DNA of 64,000 nucleotides from the NCBI RefSeq assembly GCF_900095135.1, contig NZ_LT605205.1:3968001-4032000 (forward strand), read 5' to 3'. Below the pieces are notes generated by a model. That model was not told where the DNA came from. It saw only the letters and a list, made by a program, of their open reading frames with translations, and did no database searches. Position 1 is the first letter of the stretch. Each line of letters opens with the position of its first letter. Below are positions 42,005-53,410 of this stretch, piece after piece. The position numbers and the translations under genes were made by a program. This DNA comes from Proteiniphilum saccharofermentans. Lineage in GTDB: Bacteria > Bacteroidota > Bacteroidia > Bacteroidales > Dysgonomonadaceae.

Positions 42005-42757
42005 TCATTTTATCGCATTAAAATTAATTTCCGCCTTGCGAGCCTGCGAGTGTTGTAAACGACGGTTTATGTGGTATAGTTTTCCGTCTTTGACGAACCT
42101 GGCTCCGGTTTGTTTGAACCAGAACGAAACATTCTGTCCGGCACACAGGTTGCGTAAATCTATGATCCAATCGAAATTACAGGTACGGGCACCGTATCCC
42201 GATTCCCCTCCGGCGACCACTTGCTCGACCCATGAACCTATATTGTATGAGGATAAATCTATGTGTTCCAAAAGCGGTTCACAAATAATGATTTTGTGTT
42301 TTATGGGTACCGTTTTATAGATAGGCAGGCGATAATCCGCCCTGTCCTGATTCTCAACCGTACAACAAATGGTTACATGATCATAGCCGTCGCCCCAATC
42401 TTCAGGCAATGATTCATGCAAACGGTCGATACGCTTGGTGATCATCATAAATTTCAAATCATTTCGAAGACGTATCATTTCCCATGCTTCCACACGCCAG
42501 GGATCGGCATCCTCCAAAAAGAAGTCGGAAGTGAAACAAGTGTAAACCATCGTTCCCGAAGGGATTTTGTATTCTCCGTTCCGCTTTTTCTGCACAGGTA
42601 AATCGAAATTCTTTGTTTTGGTAATAATACTACTGTCAACGTCCCGTTTTGAATCACCCCGGTAAACATAGCAATGCTTACAACCGGCGCTTAGCTTATG
42701 GCAGCCATGCCACAGGTTCCACATCTTCGACTTGGGTTCGATAGCGTTCGTGGTCAT
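42005..42757 (-). CDS. DUF5131 family protein (Gp37/Gp68-like)
   Basis: This 250-residue protein has three clustered cysteines in MWNLWHGCHKLSAGCKHCYVY, a pattern like a radical-SAM or iron-sulfur site. It also carries YTCFTSDFFLEDADPWR, MMITKRIDRL and VVAGGESGYGARTCNFDWI. These match the phage Gp37/Gp68 group, often annotated DUF5131, whose biochemical function is not known to me. It overlaps the metallo-beta-lactamase gene by 4 bp (ATGA), so translation is coupled. Confidence 0.85.
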   Translation of the reverse strand: MTTNAIEPKSKMWNLWHGCHKLSAGCKHCYVYRGDSKRDVDSSIITKTKNFDLPVQKKRNGEYKIPSGTMVYTCFTSDFFLEDADPWRVEAWEMIRLRNDLKFMMITKRIDRLHESLPEDWGDGYDHVTICCTVENQDRADYRLPIYKTVPIKHKIIICEPLLEHIDLSSYNIGSWVEQVVAGGESGYGARTCNFDWIIDLRNLCAGQNVSFWFKQTGARFVKDGKLYHINRRLQHSQARKAEINFNAIK

Positions 42758-43506
42758 TCGAACAGTGTTATTGTATAATCGAACAGTTCCATTCCTCCGT
42801 ATTTGCCATGTCCGGGGATAGCGATTTTAGTGCCCGGATATTTTGCTTTGACGCGCTTTACTGTTTCAGGCCATTCGTCAGGATTCGCTTCCGCAAGGTT
42901 TCCTTTTCCAGCCCCAACTTCTTTGATAAGGCAGCCGCCAAACATAATATCTTCCAGAGGGAAATATCCGATAACATTATCACAAGTATGTCCTTCCCCC
43001 AAAAAATCCACATATACTCTTTCTCCCCCTACTTCCAATTCGAGGAATGGATCGAATCCCTGTTGTGGAACCGGAAGTCCATCCTTTTTTGCTATTTGGA
43101 TTGTTTTCTGATAGGCATAAGAAGGTATTCCTTGGCTATGGAACTTATCCAATCCCCCTAAATTGTCGATATGATAATGAGTAGGAATAATTGCCTTGAT
43201 TTTGCATTTTAGCGTGCTTGTTATCCAATCAATCAGTTCAGAGGAAGATTCGTTATCGGTTGGCGTATCAAAAACAACAGCTTCGTTTTTGTTGCAAACA
43301 ATCATTCCGTTGCATGGGACTTTCCCGAAACTTTCGGTCTCAAGATAGGATATATGCTCATAAACATGTGCTGAGATTTGGGTTATCAACAACTTTTCCG
43401 ACTGATATACTTCCTTTTTTGATGCTGCTTCTTTACATCCTAAGAGGATAGTACTTAAGATAAATAGTGATATAATTCCGCCGATTGTTTGTGTTGCATC
43501 TTTCAT
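42754..43506 (-). CDS. Subclass B1 metallo-beta-lactamase, lipoprotein
   Basis: This 250-residue zinc enzyme hydrolyses beta-lactams, in most of its subclass including carbapenems. All six metal ligands of B1 enzymes are visible: His110, His112 and Asp114 (THYHIDNLGG), His173 (GEGHTCDN), Cys192 (MFGGCLIKE) and His233 (PGHGKYGG). The overall layout resembles CfiA/CcrA and IND-type enzymes of Bacteroidetes. A lipobox (LLGC, Cys24) predicts membrane anchoring. It lies in an operon of accessory genes and overlaps a DUF5131 gene. Actual activity and spectrum are not shown by the sequence. Confidence 0.88.
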   Translation of the reverse strand: MKDATQTIGGIISLFILSTILLGCKEAASKKEVYQSEKLLITQISAHVYEHISYLETESFGKVPCNGMIVCNKNEAVVFDTPTDNESSSELIDWITSTLKCKIKAIIPTHYHIDNLGGLDKFHSQGIPSYAYQKTIQIAKKDGLPVPQQGFDPFLELEVGGERVYVDFLGEGHTCDNVIGYFPLEDIMFGGCLIKEVGAGKGNLAEANPDEWPETVKRVKAKYPGTKIAIPGHGKYGGMELFDYTITLFE

Positions 43507-45660: not shown

Positions 45661-46659
45661 TTACTCGTCTTTTCTATCTTTTTTCTTGTTAGCCTTTCTT
45701 TCCAATTGCTTAATCGTATCCAGATAGGCTTGCTCAACAGGAGATACAGTTTTCACTTGATATTTTCTGTACTCAGCTTTTGCTTTCTCCATCGCTTGTT
45801 GATGGCTGATGCTACCGGCATCGGTCAATAACTTTTCTCCGGTTGAAGAAAGAATATTATCCAACTGATTAACGTAGTCCGACATATACATTGGATTACG
45901 CCGCATAGCTTGAATTTCCGCAAAGTCGAAATACCCGGAAACAAGATTGTTCAATATTTTAAGCTCGTCAGCCGTCAGGTAATTTTTTGCAACAGTTATA
46001 TCTTTGCTTGTGGGAAGATCTCCAGAGAATATAGTCAGCCCCATGAACGGTTTGTCAGAATCTGCCCGTTCGTAGATGACTTCTGCAGCGGTATGTCCAT
46101 GGGCCGCGAAGTGTAGCTTATTTTGTACAATTTTGAAGAATTGGATGGAAACATCAGATTTTGGATCATAATCCACACTTGTCGCATAAAGGTCGAGCAC
46201 CTGGCGATAAAGCACTTTCTCGGAAGAACGAATATCCCGGATCCGATCGAGCAGTTCTTTCCAATAACCTCCGCCACCTAATTGCTTCAGGCGTTCATCA
46301 TCCATCGTAAAGCCTTTGATAATATATTCTTTAAGCCGTTGGGTAGCCCAAATGCGGAATTGTGTACCCTGAAGCGATTTAACCCGGTAACCCACCGAAA
46401 TAATAACATCCAGGCTATAGTGGTTAGTATCGTATTTTTTACCATCCGCCGCAGTTATCCGGAAATTCCGGACAACTGAACTCTCATCCAACTCTCCTTC
46501 CTTAAATATATTGCCAATATGCTCTGATATTGTCCGCTTGTCCTTTCCAAATAATATCCCCATTTGGGACTGTGTCAACCAAACGGTTTCATCTTCTAAC
46601 CGGACATCAATTTTGATGCTGCCTTCTTTGTTTTGATATATGAGTATATTACTATTCAT
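45661..46659 (-). CDS. RhuM family protein
   Basis: This 332-residue protein has the N-terminal RhuM/KilA-like section (IDVRLEDETVWLTQSQMGILF, then KRTISEHIGNIF), the SLDVIISVGYRVKSLQGTQFRIWAT motif, and a Fic-like helical part with HGHTAAEVIYERAD. The latter is a reduced form of the Fic HxFxxGNGR motif, so adenylyl-transfer activity is doubtful. RhuM genes occur in pathogenicity and defence-type islands; their role is not settled. It has its own promoter box and lies 119 bp after the giant helicase gene. Confidence 0.88.
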   Translation of the reverse strand: MNSNILIYQNKEGSIKIDVRLEDETVWLTQSQMGILFGKDKRTISEHIGNIFKEGELDESSVVRNFRITAADGKKYDTNHYSLDVIISVGYRVKSLQGTQFRIWATQRLKEYIIKGFTMDDERLKQLGGGGYWKELLDRIRDIRSSEKVLYRQVLDLYATSVDYDPKSDVSIQFFKIVQNKLHFAAHGHTAAEVIYERADSDKPFMGLTIFSGDLPTSKDITVAKNYLTADELKILNNLVSGYFDFAEIQAMRRNPMYMSDYVNQLDNILSSTGEKLLTDAGSISHQQAMEKAKAEYRKYQVKTVSPVEQAYLDTIKQLERKANKKKDRKDE

Positions 46660-46778: not shown

Positions 46779-49700
46779 TTACAAAATAATAGCCCGTCCG
46801 TTTTCCACTTTCATATAACCCCGCTCTATTGCTTCACGTATGCCCTTACGCATAGCATAATCAACAATATTCCCCGTCCTGGTAAAACCGAAAAGTTGCG
46901 CTGTAATACGTGACAAATCTTTTGTCGGGAGGCTGATTTGTGATCTCAATAAATATCTCATCGCATTCGCCACTTCATCAGGCGCCAAATCATGCGCAAT
47001 ACGTTCCGATACCGGCCTGAAAGTATCGTATGAAATCATCTGCTCTTCACTTCTCCAAAAGAAGAAAGATCCGTGGCCTCTTTTTGGATAGTGTTCAATC
47101 TTATTGAACAATTCATTAAAATAGGCATCTATCCGTGATCCTAAACGGGAAATTCCCCAGGAATTAAGCACACGCTTACACAGCAGAGAACGGCTTATTG
47201 GCGCTTCTGCTTCAAGTACCGTTTGGATTTGCCTTAAGATATAGTCCTCATGGTGAGGAAGAAGAAATGATTCTGAGGGAAATGGCACTTTTGGAAGATT
47301 TGCATACACATATGTATCATGTATATCGGATTCTTCTGTTTTTATTGGCTCTTCCCGCATTACGGTTGACGCTTCTTTCATCACAACCGGCTCTTTCGCC
47401 ATTGTATTTGGTTTTTCCGGCATCACTCCCCGATCCGCAAAATTATTTTTGATCAGCCCCTCTTCATCTCCTGCCAGAACCAATCCTTTTCCATCTTGTT
47501 TTTTAGCTATGACCGGTTCAGAGATTCCCTTTTTAGCTTTTTCGATGGCAGACTCAATCATGATCATTACTTTCGAGGGATTCTCCCACCAATCGAGCGT
47601 CCATACACGGCATATATTCCATCCCAACATGCGCAATACACTGTTCTGCACAATTTCCCTATCCCTGGTGGTTTTTGTCCGTCTATAATTTTCGCCATCA
47701 CAAATGATACCTAAAATATAGTTACCAGGATTATTCTTATCCACAACGGCAATATCAATCTTATAGCCGGAAGTACCGATATTTGTATGCACCTCATATC
47801 CTATTTCCCTTAATTTTTCAGCAACAAGATATTCAATTGAAGCATCCTTGGACATAGCTAACTGTCGCTCCCTATTGAGTCGCTCTCCCTTTTCCGCAAA
47901 ATCGAGAAAACGTTTCAGGCTTTTGACACCTATGGCAGAGGTGCGATTCAAATCGATCTGATCGGAACGCAGTGATGAGAAAATGATCATTTCATACCTT
48001 GCGCGGGAGACAGCCACATTCAGACGCCTCTCCCCTCCATTACGGTTTAATGGCCCGAAGTTCATACTCACCCGGCCTTCCGCATCCGGGCCATATCCCA
48101 CGGAAAACAGAATGACATCGCGTTCATCACCCTGTACATTTTCGAGATTCTTAATGAACAGGGGCTCTTTGCATTCCAGGGCAATAGCCTCTAAATCGGG
48201 TCTGAAAACAAACAGATCTGACAACAGGTCTTCAATAAGATTCTGTTGCACTGCACTAAAGGTAACTACTCCAATACTTTTTTTTCTTAACTCCTCATCG
48301 GACAAACGACGTTTGATCTCATTGACTACGGCTTCGGCCTCATTTCTATTCTGCCGGCTTCTCCCTTTGTCATAGAGCCCATCGATATGAACCATGCGGA
48401 CTTTCGATTCGATATTATCAGGAGAAGGAAAAGTAAGCAGTTTATTATCATAATACTCCGAATTGCTGAACGCTATCAGGCTTTCATGTTTACTACGGTA
48501 GTGCCACAGCAGATAGCGGGAGGGTATAGAAAGCGCCAAAGTATCGTCCAGGATACTCTCCAGATCTTCTTTATCCAGATTATCCTCATCCACGTTATTG
48601 ACAGAGAAAAAGTTTGTCGGAGGCATTTGCTTGGGATCACCTACAATGATCATGTTCTTTCCCCTGGCAATAGCGCCCACAGCCTCATACGTCGGCATTT
48701 GAGAAGCCTCGTCGAAAATGATCAGATCAAACTTGTCGGCATCGGGATTGATATATTGCGCGACCGAGATCGGACTCATCAGCATGCAAGGACACATGCG
48801 TGATAATAAAGTAGGAATCTGATCGAACAGGTTGCGGATGGACATGCCACGCGCATTATTCCTGATACTGCGTTGCAATATTCCCACTTCTGAATTTTGG
48901 GTAGCCTCAATAGTAAACGAGGGGATATTCGCGGCCAATCTGGCATATAATTCTTTCCTGGTGATTTCTGCAAAATTATCGTTCAATTCCTTGTACTTTG
49001 AAATCACATCATTGAATAATTCTCCTTTAAAAAGTTCCAATCCCGGCTCCTGCGCAATAATATAGTCAATAGCCGCATGATAGAATCCTTTCAAAAAACT
49101 GTTTTTTAATTGATGCGTCGGAATATTCTTCTCCCTGTATTCATCAGCGACAAATCCAATTTGAAGTCCGGCCGCCCTCTCTTTTGCAGTGAGCCACTGA
49201 CACCAGTCTTTTAGCTTGTCGATATGGGAAAGCCAACTATTTAACCGGGATAAAGCGTTGTCTAACCACAATGCATCATTGCCCATTAGCACCGTATCGT
49301 CCACATTCAATACCCTCGACATTTCGGATAATACATTCTCCAATTTCAACAACAACACGCTACATTCATTGAAAGATTTCTCATGTACTTTCCTAAAAGT
49401 ATCTATCCCGCTCACTAACTGCCTGGCGATATTTTGCTTCAGTTCATTGGCTTTCACGATATCGTTCGTAAAAACAAGCACAACATTGTCCAATAAAGAG
49501 AAATCGTTGATTATTTGAAGGATCGTTTCCCATTGTTCATTTTCCGGTTTGGCAAACTTTCCGAACAGCGAGTGCAACTTTGAGGAATAGTCATTCACTA
49601 ATTTCCGTTCCTGCTGGTATTGGATAATGTTTGTAAGTGTGTTCTTTATATCGATATGTTTAATAGTGCCGACATCAATATATAATTTCAATTGACCACG

Positions 49701-52700
49701 CACCTTCTTTTGTCCCAAAATCCGGGGGATATACCATTTATTGGCGGCCATATTCCATGCATTCAATAGAGATCTGGCATCGATAGTAAGGATATCTTCG
49801 CTGAAATACTGTCGGATTTCTTTTTTATATCGGTCACGCTCCTTTCCATGCACTACCACTTCTCTACATTCCGTGAACAGCTCTTCCGGCGTATGTTCGT
49901 GCAATAAAGCAGGTGTCAACCCGGGTATTTGAAGTAAAACAGCGAAAAGCGTTGCCGCGCTGTCAAACTGCCCCCGGGTATATTTTGTTTCAGGCGTATC
50001 TCCTGTCAGCGTACTTAATAGCGTTGTTTGCTTTTTCAGATCCGAAAAAACCTTAATGGCCTCCTGTAAGACAACAGAAGCTTTCTCTTTTGCTTCAGAT
50101 GTATATCTTGACAGGTTGATGCCGGTCAGAGGATGGTCATAAGGATGTCCGCAAGCATTGCCAATGCTTACCAGCAAATCGACCATATCCTGCCACTCAA
50201 GCAGTTTCTCTTCTGTCAGGCCGGGAAACAGGTGTGAAGGAAATTTTACCTCCTGATCCGTCTCTGTATGTAAATAATTTGTGATAGCCCGGTACAACGA
50301 TAACCCAAACGGATACTGCTTATGCAATGCATCCACGTATACATTCAGGTTTTTACGCAGTTCGAATAAACGTTTGGCATCCCGGTCGAAATTCTCAGGA
50401 GAACGGTGTTTCACAATTTCAGTCGTCCTTTTCAACTGCGACAGGACATCTGTCTTCTTCGCTTTATTTGAATGAAGTTCCAGACAGAAAGGAGCCAACC
50501 CGATAGCCTCCAGGCGGCTTTGCACAACCGATAACGCGGCCATTTTTTCTGCAACGAACAATACCCTCTTCTTCCGGTATAAGGCGTTCGCTATGATATT
50601 GGTAATGGTCTGCGATTTCCCTGTCCCGGGAGGTCCATGCAAGATATAGGTTTTATCATTGACGGCTTCATAAACGGCTTCCAACTGGGATGAATCGGCG
50701 CTGATAGGGAGTACAATATCTGCCGGACTCAACGTTTTATCCAAATCCGACGCATTGGTCACTCTGTCATCCACATCGAACTCAATTTTCCCGTTGACCA
50801 GGCTCTGTACCAATTTATTCCGTAGCAACTTATCCGAGTTATTGTGGATATCATTCCACATAATGAATTTATTGAACGAGAATATACCCAGAACAGCCTG
50901 TTCTTCCACATCCCATTTTGGCAGGTTTTTGATGCTGCTCCTGATGATAGAATAGATAAGCCTTACATTCACGCCACTTTCATCCTGCGGGAGTGGTTCC
51001 AAACCAGGCACATTGATACCGAAATTTTGCCTGAGCATCTCAAGCAAAGTGATGTTCAGCATAATATCTTCTTCCCGCGAACGAATGATATACCCTTTGG
51101 CAGCCGATTTCCGAATCATTTCTACGGGGAATAACAATATTGGAGCATAACGCGGACGTTCACTACTGGGAGTCTCGTACCAGCGAAGTAACCCGAGCGC
51201 CATATAGAGTGTATTGGCTCCATTTTCTTCAATCGACAATCTGGAGGAACGGTACAAATGCTTTAATGACTTATCCAATTCCGATTCTGTCAGGTAGGTC
51301 CTTAATCTCTTCTGATCCATTTCCGATTTGATCAACTCAATAATTGGATCGGAAGAGGCCAGAGAATGATAGACTCCAAAATCATATAACGGATTGTCCC
51401 AGTCTGTAGGTTTCGGCATGAGCCTGAACTCACTCCCATCGGCTAAGGCATCTTCAAATTTATCTAAATCGGCTGAAATTAATTGAAGTGTATTTCTCGT
51501 TATTCTGGTGTTCAACAGATTATTTCGCAAGCTCAAATCCAATAATTTTCGTTCCCACATCAATTGCTTGGTAACTTGGATATCAGTGGAAAGATTGGAT
51601 AAATCATATGGATTAATCGCTTCCGGATTAACAATTTCCTTTTCTATAAATGGGGCTTCGCTCTCTTTTATCTGCCAATGCTCACCATTCAAAACACGTT
51701 GCGGCAGAGGCCGTACTCCCGAATACCGGGAACGTTTCACATCCAAAGCCAAAACAAAATCACCAATTCGTTTGACAGCATCGTGTGCCTGCTTTACCGC
51801 CTGGTCGAAAGTAGCGTCATTTCCCTTATTCATACAGGTAGTTTCCACCAAGATAATCTCATTGACCCCTTCGGCTGTTCTTTTTGTCAGGAACGAACAA
51901 TCATCAATCACGCTATCAGGAAAAGTGTCCGGCACGAGCCACGCACCTGCAAAGGCGTGTCCCCGGGTAACAACAATCAAGGGATGGATACCAATCGCTT
52001 CCAGACAAGAAGCATACAATAAGGCCATGTCCAGGCATGTCCCCAGTTTCTGCGATGTCACACTATCTACCATTCTAATGCGCTGTCCATACTTCTCAAA
52101 ACTTGCCGGAACCGAGCTGTATATGATACCTTGTTCCGCAATGGCATTATAGACAGCCGCCATCTGATTCTTTACCCGGTTGGGATTCCTGCTCTGGTAT
52201 TCGTCAAGCGCCGGATTGCCCGTCATCTTTTCCAAAATATCAGCCACCCTTCTCTGTATGGGAATAACAGCAGGGTGGTTAGGAGTGACAAAAGCAGACA
52301 GCATCTCCGGCAGGATGGAAACCCCGCTCCACTGATCAAAAGCCAATACGTCGATAGGATAATCCTCCTTGAAAATAATCTCATCCTCCAGTTTAATGGT
52401 TAACGAAATATTCCCGGCTATCCGCTCGGTGAGTTGAATAAAAAAATTGGTCGACAATTTTAGTTTCAGGTCATCAATCCGGGCTGTATGGTTGGCAGGA
52501 ATTTCCTCTAACAGATAAGGTACTGTCTCGGCAAAATCGGGTTCGGTAGCCAGTTCCACACGGATATTGCTTAACGGCTTTCCTGAAATATTTTCAATGG
52601 TGAAAGCACGAACGACAGAAACACGATTCTGCTGAAACGCGAAATTGATCACAGGAAGATAGACGAATTCCACCTTTATTAAATTAGATCTTTCACTCAT
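46779..52700 (-). CDS. Giant transglutaminase-like / SF1 helicase / Vsr-like nuclease protein
   Basis: This 1973-residue protein has at least five parts. (1) A beta-sandwich, about 1-110. (2) A papain-like transglutaminase core with Cys222 (LGTCLDMALLYASC), His248 (VVTRGHAFAGAWL) and acidic residues after it. (3) A DUF4011-type region opening at WERKLLDLSLRNNLLN (about 382). (4) A superfamily 1 helicase with Walker A GPPGTGKS (689-696), Walker B DEASQMP (Asp1330), GDPKQMPP and the NVAVSRAR motif near 1561. (5) A Vsr/MTES_1575-like nuclease (about 1620-1720; GYKIDIAVVD, GIICDGENY), then a DUF3320 C-terminus. Related helicase-nucleases are frequent in defence islands. The likely job is sensing and cutting foreign DNA, which is an inference. 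Confidence 0.9.
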   Translation of the reverse strand: MSERSNLIKVEFVYLPVINFAFQQNRVSVVRAFTIENISGKPLSNIRVELATEPDFAETVPYLLEEIPANHTARIDDLKLKLSTNFFIQLTERIAGNISLTIKLEDEIIFKEDYPIDVLAFDQWSGVSILPEMLSAFVTPNHPAVIPIQRRVADILEKMTGNPALDEYQSRNPNRVKNQMAAVYNAIAEQGIIYSSVPASFEKYGQRIRMVDSVTSQKLGTCLDMALLYASCLEAIGIHPLIVVTRGHAFAGAWLVPDTFPDSVIDDCSFLTKRTAEGVNEIILVETTCMNKGNDATFDQAVKQAHDAVKRIGDFVLALDVKRSRYSGVRPLPQRVLNGEHWQIKESEAPFIEKEIVNPEAINPYDLSNLSTDIQVTKQLMWERKLLDLSLRNNLLNTRITRNTLQLISADLDKFEDALADGSEFRLMPKPTDWDNPLYDFGVYHSLASSDPIIELIKSEMDQKRLRTYLTESELDKSLKHLYRSSRLSIEENGANTLYMALGLLRWYETPSSERPRYAPILLFPVEMIRKSAAKGYIIRSREEDIMLNITLLEMLRQNFGINVPGLEPLPQDESGVNVRLIYSIIRSSIKNLPKWDVEEQAVLGIFSFNKFIMWNDIHNNSDKLLRNKLVQSLVNGKIEFDVDDRVTNASDLDKTLSPADIVLPISADSSQLEAVYEAVNDKTYILHGPPGTGKSQTITNIIANALYRKKRVLFVAEKMAALSVVQSRLEAIGLAPFCLELHSNKAKKTDVLSQLKRTTEIVKHRSPENFDRDAKRLFELRKNLNVYVDALHKQYPFGLSLYRAITNYLHTETDQEVKFPSHLFPGLTEEKLLEWQDMVDLLVSIGNACGHPYDHPLTGINLSRYTSEAKEKASVVLQEAIKVFSDLKKQTTLLSTLTGDTPETKYTRGQFDSAATLFAVLLQIPGLTPALLHEHTPEELFTECREVVVHGKERDRYKKEIRQYFSEDILTIDARSLLNAWNMAANKWYIPRILGQKKVRGQLKLYIDVGTIKHIDIKNTLTNIIQYQQERKLVNDYSSKLHSLFGKFAKPENEQWETILQIINDFSLLDNVVLVFTNDIVKANELKQNIARQLVSGIDTFRKVHEKSFNECSVLLLKLENVLSEMSRVLNVDDTVLMGNDALWLDNALSRLNSWLSHIDKLKDWCQWLTAKERAAGLQIGFVADEYREKNIPTHQLKNSFLKGFYHAAIDYIIAQEPGLELFKGELFNDVISKYKELNDNFAEITRKELYARLAANIPSFTIEATQNSEVGILQRSIRNNARGMSIRNLFDQIPTLLSRMCPCMLMSPISVAQYINPDADKFDLIIFDEASQMPTYEAVGAIARGKNMIIVGDPKQMPPTNFFSVNNVDEDNLDKEDLESILDDTLALSIPSRYLLWHYRSKHESLIAFSNSEYYDNKLLTFPSPDNIESKVRMVHIDGLYDKGRSRQNRNEAEAVVNEIKRRLSDEELRKKSIGVVTFSAVQQNLIEDLLSDLFVFRPDLEAIALECKEPLFIKNLENVQGDERDVILFSVGYGPDAEGRVSMNFGPLNRNGGERRLNVAVSRARYEMIIFSSLRSDQIDLNRTSAIGVKSLKRFLDFAEKGERLNRERQLAMSKDASIEYLVAEKLREIGYEVHTNIGTSGYKIDIAVVDKNNPGNYILGIICDGENYRRTKTTRDREIVQNSVLRMLGWNICRVWTLDWWENPSKVMIMIESAIEKAKKGISEPVIAKKQDGKGLVLAGDEEGLIKNNFADRGVMPEKPNTMAKEPVVMKEASTVMREEPIKTEESDIHDTYVYANLPKVPFPSESFLLPHHEDYILRQIQTVLEAEAPISRSLLCKRVLNSWGISRLGSRIDAYFNELFNKIEHYPKRGHGSFFFWRSEEQMISYDTFRPVSERIAHDLAPDEVANAMRYLLRSQISLPTKDLSRITAQLFGFTRTGNIVDYAMRKGIREAIERGYMKVENGRAIIL

Positions 52701-52941: not shown

Positions 52942-53410
52942 CTAAGGCAGGATATAGCCTAATCGCTGAATGACTGGTGTACTTTGATATCGCGATGCTG
53001 TTTTCACAAGTGCCGATACTATCATAATCTGCGCTAATTCCTGCAATACGGTAGTTGCCCGATTTAATCCGATTTTGTGGGTATAGTTCAACAAATCAAG
53101 TGCAGTCAACTCGGGTGAAGAAACATTCATATACCCTGCATTAGTCGTTTTTTTCACAATATCTCCCTGTTCCCAACTATTTTTTGAAAAAAATGAAATT
53201 TTCAACTTTTTATTATGAATACTTCTCGACGCAGGGGTTTGTACTATCACAAAATATTCCATTGGCTGCTGATGTGTTGCACCATGCAAAGCCGCCGCCG
53301 ATAATAATGCCACATAATATGGCTGTTCAGCGACTCCATTAGATCATCAATAAATATGGCGGTAACATTCCTTGATTTGAATATTCTGGTGGAATTATCA
53401 CATAAAAAGT
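52942..53410 (-). pseudogene. AbiEi-type antitoxin remnant, two frameshifts
   Basis: The C-terminal part is open for 123 codons from a GTG (ALLSAAALHGATHQQPMEYF, then SSPELTALDLLNYTHKIGLNR), typical of AbiEi-type antitoxins of type IV toxin-antitoxin systems. Upstream pieces FYVIIPPEYSNQGMLPPYL and IDDLMESLN belong to the same family but lie in two other frames, one missing base apart each. The N-terminal wHTH is gone. No AbiEii toxin gene follows. Confidence 0.75.

Follow-up and report, generated by a model that had tools for sequence, protein, structure and literature searches.

The window, by which we mean the whole 64,000-nucleotide stretch analysed here, lies in a Proteiniphilum saccharofermentans genome represented by one contig of 4.41 Mb, and it contains a very long open reading frame that starts with ATG and encodes a single giant protein (Table 1). 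The frame agrees in position and length with the original prediction, which had not given its strand, and alignment confirmed the numbering of Cys222, His248, and Lys695. Pfam searches and structure models likewise establish that one chain carries a transglutaminase-like (TGL) core, DUF4011, an SF1 helicase, a Vsr-type nuclease domain, and DUF3320. The helicase, whose halves Pfam recognises as AAA_11/AAA_12, is most like Sen1, SMUBP-2, and Upf1 in sequence, and these halves are separated by a long stretch in which 27 of 530 columns are identical in at least 17 of 18 aligned rows. According to the part of PMC3710099 that treats this domain, DUF3320 overlaps a winged helix (wHTH).

Table 1. Features of the giant protein and its neighbours; coordinates are those of the window unless a locus is named.
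Feature	Coordinates	Strand	Basis
ProA-family giant protein	46779..52700	minus	1973-aa ORF; NF058533, 2192 bits vs cut-off 1500
N-terminal beta-sandwich, CARDB-like, residues 8-118	52347..52679	minus	Model strands; Foldseek 2kl6
TGL core, residues 119-345	51666..52346	minus	Structure models; distant Foldseek matches
Cys222, predicted nucleophile	52035..52037	minus	C in 18/18, 89/89, 97/97 rows
His248	51957..51959	minus	H in 18/18, 89/89, 97/97 rows
Glu286, predicted third triad residue, Glu replacing Asp	51843..51845	minus	E in 18/18, 89/89, 97/97 rows
Flexible linker, residues 346-384	51549..51665	minus	pLDDT about 50-68; mostly variable
DUF4011, residues 385-556	51033..51548	minus	PF13195, E 9e-50
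SF1 helicase first half, residues 669-770	50391..50696	minus	PF13086; Walker A GPPGTGKS 689-696 (Lys695)
Long poorly conserved stretch between helicase halves, residues 771-1300	48801..50390	minus	Alignment
SF1 helicase second half, residues 1301-1580	47961..48800	minus	PF13087, PF13086; DEAS 1330, GDPKQ 1354, VAVSRAR 1562
Vsr-type nuclease domain REase_MTES_1575, residues 1625-1719	47544..47828	minus	PF18741, E 3e-28
DUF3320, residues 1811-1858	47127..47270	minus	PF11784, E 1e-13
RhuM-family gene just 3' of ProA	45661..46659	minus	PF13310, E 4.5e-109
Example reverse transcriptases beside ProA	L088:13985-15112, L080:13794-14954, L086:6055-7218, L095:8477-9547		Retron-type, hydrophobic N-terminal stretch (by eye)

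The entire chain matches the NCBIfam model NF058533, "anti-phage protein ProA", at 2192.3 bits against a cut-off of 1500, with residues 19-1941 aligned to model positions 1-1903, head included; a headless protein also just passes this cut-off (1503). At the family level we found no difference from ProA, and the window protein is an ordinary, well-preserved member of that family and not a new kind of system. The original prediction had held the N-terminal head to be foreign to any nameable defence system, and this view did not survive: the head falls within the family match, all six parts share a single frame in 69 of the 80 genome loci fetched, and a comparable TGL-helicase-nuclease architecture, together with a suggested proteolytic role, appears in the passages of PMC3710099 (2013) that deal with such giants. 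What did hold is the broader notion that this is probably a defence protein whose head is a cysteine-type enzyme. The further suggestion of a sensor that would both cut DNA and act on a protein is a hypothesis, and in the window's branch the DNA-cutting half is without two residues that its relatives share. The other 11 genome loci comprise two that lack a recognised DUF3320 alone, six cut by a contig end, two split, and one short, and five of the eight viral-contig loci have all six parts, the other three being without a recognised DUF3320. Head and body were also seen on separate open frames, at L055:5955-7370 (with the body on L031) and in L078 and L132.

The giants described in those passages of PMC3710099 combine HEPN, a transglutaminase-like peptidase, an SF-I helicase, a Vsr REase, and wHTH. 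Their example is MTES_1575, in which, as presented there, the wHTH overlaps DUF3320; the giants are described as lacking modification genes, and protein cleavage by the TGL domain is suggested as a further line of defence; both the architecture and the idea of a protein-acting head were therefore already in print. The window protein likewise joins TGL, SF1 helicase, Vsr-type REase, and DUF3320/winged helix, but it starts with a CARDB-like beta-sandwich where the giants of that account start with a HEPN RNase, and a Pfam search of the window protein at E up to 1 found no HEPN family. Its DUF4011-helicase-nuclease-DUF3320 body also matches PADLOC PDC-S37 (1253 bits, residues 379-1967), whereas the 1550-position model finds no match within the TGL head. 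Hhe (NF042953) has a related DUF4011-helicase body, yet the window protein scores 794 bits against a cut-off of 2000 and is not a member. The name ProA prompted a comparison with the DefenseFinder system Prometheus; the passages found on Prometheus list it without its genes, and no link between the two emerged.

ProA is unevenly distributed. The cut-off is exceeded in 22 of 395 genomes of the phylum which, when sorted by the model range aligned, comprise 15 headed forms, six headless forms, and one with the head on a separate frame. Within the genus it is exceeded in 4 of 25 genomes, own genome included, a patchy occurrence. Matches were also found in 509 plasmid records, at least 80% of the query being covered in 25 of them, and in six phage records, one of which reaches that coverage, and the plasmid matches mark ProA as mobile; ProA loci also occur on viral contigs, eight such loci having been fetched. 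Of the fetched loci with a named source, that of Proteiniphilum acetatigenes is closest, with 96% identity in the head and 93% across the whole protein (the locus is also represented as L004).

Conservation was examined in three sets: 18 rows (the window protein and 17 matches to the family model), 89 aligned heads, and 97 headed rows (the window protein, 71 genome loci, eight viral-contig loci, and 17 loci of the G series). Five genomes are counted twice among the headed rows (L004/L076, L005/L077, L025/L092, L002/L122, and L017/L123), and among the viral-contig loci L161 and L162 are almost copies of each other, as are L159 and L160. L146, a 94-residue fragment, was removed from the head set, and L031, whose head lies on a separate open frame, was removed from the headless set, leaving 14 rows. 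The helicase Walker A motif is invariant in all 97 headed and all 14 headless rows, and DEAS and Arg1566 are each kept in 97/97 headed rows.

The head was modelled with AlphaFold from a 77-row alignment of residues 1-384 and a 39-row alignment of residues 119-345, giving mean pLDDT values of 89.6 and 93.2, respectively. Its first part is a beta-sandwich for which Foldseek returned the CARDB structure 2kl6 (TMt 0.65, E 0.011), and one of 77 family members has a Pfam CARDB match (E 0.0012). In the window protein the following core reaches 13.9 bits with Pfam Transglut_core (E 0.069), short of the cut-off of 23, and 26 of 77 relatives match that family at E up to 0.1. When the whole head was compared with the PDB by Foldseek, the top match was transglutaminase 2 (E 2e-4), with a poor overall superposition: the sandwich and the core do not fit at the same time (rmsd near 18). 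When the core was searched by itself, the top two matches were chains of axonemal repeats (E 3e-4 and 1e-3), followed by the putative cysteine proteases 3kd4 and 3isr and by PNGase (E 0.007-0.03), while further matches, up to E above 0.1, include CPR-C4 protease, PeiP, arylamine N-acetyltransferase, and the non-catalytic Rad4 and menin. TM-scores are low for both head and core (0.15-0.37 of the query), and a sequence profile of the head matched nothing in the PDB at E up to 1, so that no close solved structure emerged. Because the Foldseek matches are distant and poorly superposed, the modelled fold is placed as transglutaminase-like at the level of the superfamily.

The active site of a TGL fold usually presents its residues in the order Cys, His, acid. 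In the model, this order is realised by C222-H248-E286: helix 222-235 begins with Cys222 and strand 248-254 with His248, while Glu286, within the stretch V-E-T-T, comes immediately after strand 282-285. The papain-like Cys/His core of the original prediction thus stands insofar as Cys222 and His248 lie in a TGL-like core, with the amendment that the predicted third residue is Glu286 and not Asp. All three residues are identical in every row of the three sets, the fetch pattern having fixed His248 in 71 of the 97 headed rows and one of the two fetch patterns for the eight viral-contig rows having contained Cys222; Glu286 was in no pattern. The head could, in principle, be a non-catalytic binding or sensing module, like Rad4 or menin. 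That TGL folds include such proteins, which are among the Foldseek matches, and that the structural matches are weak both count against a catalytic head, but a module of this kind would have no need for an identical Cys, His, and Glu in 97/97 rows, and we consider it improbable.

The nuclease domain is confidently recognised (98.2 bits against a cut-off of 38.2), as the original prediction had said, yet it lacks the Glu and His common to most of its relatives. Where these have I-E-C-D-G...Y-H, the window protein has I-I-C-D-G...Y-R, so that Glu is replaced by I1666 and His by R1673; both shared residues are presumed to be catalytic. Among the 97 headed rows, 13 have both residues, one has Glu alone, three have His alone, and 80 have neither, whereas both are present in 13 of the 14 headless rows, the exception (L034) having neither. 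Eleven further related helicases were aligned, nine of which have Glu and His and two of which (L165 and L166) do not; both are also missing from L168, which stands outside that alignment and is a related helicase with only a short N-terminus. Loss of the two residues therefore needs no head, as L034 and L168 attest, and head and intact motif can coexist, since 14 of the 97 headed rows keep Glu and 13 of these also keep His. The 14 Glu-keeping rows are the viral-contig loci L158-L163 and the G loci L018-L024 and L027.

These observations were placed on a tree of the body built from 55 rows: the window protein, 20 loci (every fourth of 79 fetched), 14 of the 17 headed G loci, the 14 headless rows, and six others. 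All 35 headed rows fall on one side of a single branch (SH-aLRT 97), and the head label likewise needs one change in a tree built without the nuclease columns. The root is uncertain because the outgroup branches are long; the simplest reading is that the head was gained once and has persisted in both Bacteroidota and Bacillota rows. The eight Glu-keepers in the tree form a single group (SH-aLRT 100), and loss of Glu/His within the headed rows requires one change when the nuclease columns are left out. Among headed rows the loss is thus one event with no repeated pattern, which counts against the head as the output of the protein.

A reading in which ProA mainly degrades DNA has to be weighed here. 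The helicase would pass phage DNA on to a non-canonical nuclease of the Vsr type, and the role of the TGL head would be limited to processing or regulating the chain. The strongly recognised nuclease fold fits such a role, as does the full motif in most headless and outgroup relatives. Asp1649 is kept in 95/97 headed rows, and Asp1668, Arg1681, and Trp1694 in 97/97 each, so that the fold, and possibly a measure of metal binding, is retained. Vsr itself is active without that Glu and, with both Asp residues kept, the nuclease of the window's branch may therefore be active as well. A processing site could be marked by Pro359, which is nearly invariant in the alignments and, with the linker end from Lys378, an exception to the variability of the linker. 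Elsewhere, however, the linker mostly varies, and Glu and His have been lost together in 80/97 headed rows while the TGL triad is unchanged. Taken together, a DNA-degrading ProA appears a real possibility, though one we would place clearly below even chances, and the nuclease of the window's branch is probably not the main weapon but has been weakened, or is retained to bind DNA.

The invariant triad beside a changed nuclease site suggests instead that the head, and not the nuclease, is the indispensable enzyme in this branch, and the sequence counts (triad C/H/E in 97/97 rows versus nuclease Glu and His both absent in 80/97) suggest that the head may be the output. We therefore put forward, as a proposal about which opinion could divide almost equally, that ProA is an anti-phage and apparently single-gene DNA-sensing helicase with its TGL head as output. 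Judging from the domains, the C-terminal DUF3320 winged helix, DUF4011, and the SF1 helicase would detect invading or abnormal DNA and move on it. Detection would then switch on the N-terminal TGL enzyme, a predicted Cys222-His248-Glu286 hydrolase or acyltransferase, and the head would cleave or modify a protein, stopping infection. No widely shared partner gene was found beside ProA, a point against the proposal; the substrate may therefore be ProA itself or a host or phage protein. A stronger form of the proposal is that the window's branch has swapped weapons, the nuclease being dead, the body serving only as DNA sensor, and the TGL head acting as a cysteine protease effector; this we hold as a tentative and rather doubtful extension.

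If weapons were swapped in ProA, the change would be an independent counterpart of the protease-HamA fusions in Hachiman. As described in the portion of PMC12799240 that covers them, virtually none of these fusions retains the catalytic motif of HamA; what they activate in its place is a partner pro-nuclease, and immunity is lost in protease and in helicase mutants. Both systems, on that description, have a protease or protease-like part fused to a sensor helicase-nuclease whose nuclease motif is lost; the Hachiman fusions differ in their trypsin-like protease, separate genes, and partner pro-nuclease. If ProA acts on a protein, there would be two independent instances in which a defence nuclease gave up its motif next to a fused protease. 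With the architecture already known, what is new here is the Glu in the predicted triad and the change in the nuclease, and the invariant head set against the changed nuclease gives the 2013 remark on TGL cleavage a testable form, in which ProA is protein-acting, DNA-cutting, or both.

The surroundings of ProA bear on whether it is a defence protein at all. In the window, a RhuM-family gene lies just 3' of ProA, and in Proteiniphilum L076 and L077 a gene with a similar start (by eye) is found at the corresponding position. ProA is preceded by a 123-aa ORF (52942-53313) with an AbiEi antitoxin C-terminal domain (PF09407); reading the ORFs around it by eye revealed no AbiEii toxin gene. Ten of the 71 intact headed loci (five Bacteroides, four Dysgonomonas, one Tannerella) have a reverse transcriptase (RT) tail to tail with ProA, at 8-57 bases in eight loci and at 355 and 2020 bases in the other two. 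An all-against-all comparison of 588 neighbours of the 71 loci, many of which end within 8 kb, revealed no widely shared partner gene, the RT being the best candidate. An ABC-ATPase-like neighbour, seen by eye in five loci from five groups, lies at scattered distances and is probably there by chance.

Defence models were compared between nearest neighbours (125 of 131, at least 150 aa, two of the 125 being from L078, where ProA is split) and control genes lying far from ProA (125 of 130, from 12 regions of 12 genomes, three with headless forms). At E up to 1e-15, the neighbours matched 119 PADLOC families and the far genes 10; the best 25 of the 119 are all RT models, matched by nine proteins. 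A scan of 15 loci at E up to 1e-10, which covered 149 of their 156 neighbours, gave 216 families with no more than three members each. The original expectation of a defence neighbourhood thus receives a mixed answer: RT lies near ProA in 10/71 intact loci and no RT model is matched by the 125 control genes at E up to 1e-15, but the RT signal is one gene family in three genera, and defence-island enrichment around ProA is weakly supported. The SF1 helicase of Sen1/SMUBP-2/Upf1 type, and a window neighbourhood that by eye is no classic defence island, would suit a DNA repair or recombination helicase outside defence. We regard this as very unlikely, given a family named anti-phage in NCBIfam, a body that is PDC-S37 in PADLOC, the patchy occurrence in the genus, the presence on plasmids and viral contigs, and the RT, RhuM, and AbiEi neighbours.

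The neighbouring RT is best matched by the PADLOC model RT_III-A (3e-107). Upstream of it, in eight of nine regions examined, lies a conserved element that has GAGGATGAG/CTCATCCTC at its ends and a hairpin inside and resembles a retron msr-msd; covariation in this element is nearly uninformative because the pairs hardly vary, and an Rfam scan of six retron-bearing loci gave nothing at the gathering threshold. In the window's family, 90 genomes were surveyed: RT (E up to 1e-60) is present in eight, ProA in 16, and both in six, and five of the RTs adjoin ProA (hypergeometric 3e-4, uncorrected for kinship). This co-occurrence is not independent, because four of the five adjacent cases are the discovery loci L080, L083, L085, and L086, G814 alone being new. 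In 201 genomes of the Bacteroides pyogenes family, ProA occurs in 28 and RT in none, a zero that is uninformative without a positive genome. Neither a search of window positions 38001-62000 for an RT remnant nor a search of the own genome for an RT at E up to 1e-30 found one. A retron-ProA module in some Bacteroidota is possible.

Several further observations accompany the analysis. A lipoprotein-like ORF at 42754-43506 of the window has, by eye, a metal site like that of class B metallo-beta-lactamases (HxHxD, HT, C, GHG). L165:876-6320 and L166 are DUF4011-type helicases with a different N-terminal region, which looked kinase-like by eye, an impression that Pfam did not support in L165 at E up to 0.01; L165 ends in a WGR domain. 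Stand-alone relatives of the head also exist in Bacteroidota (n=8, L047-L054), four of them of about 400-440 aa (L047, L049, L050, and L051) and four of about 830-860 aa (L048, L052, L053, and L054). Pfam at E up to 0.01 assigned no transglutaminase family to L047, L048, or L049, and L048 has TPR matches below the cut-off. By eye, these stand-alone relatives have the Cys, the His, and a LETT or LETS pattern.
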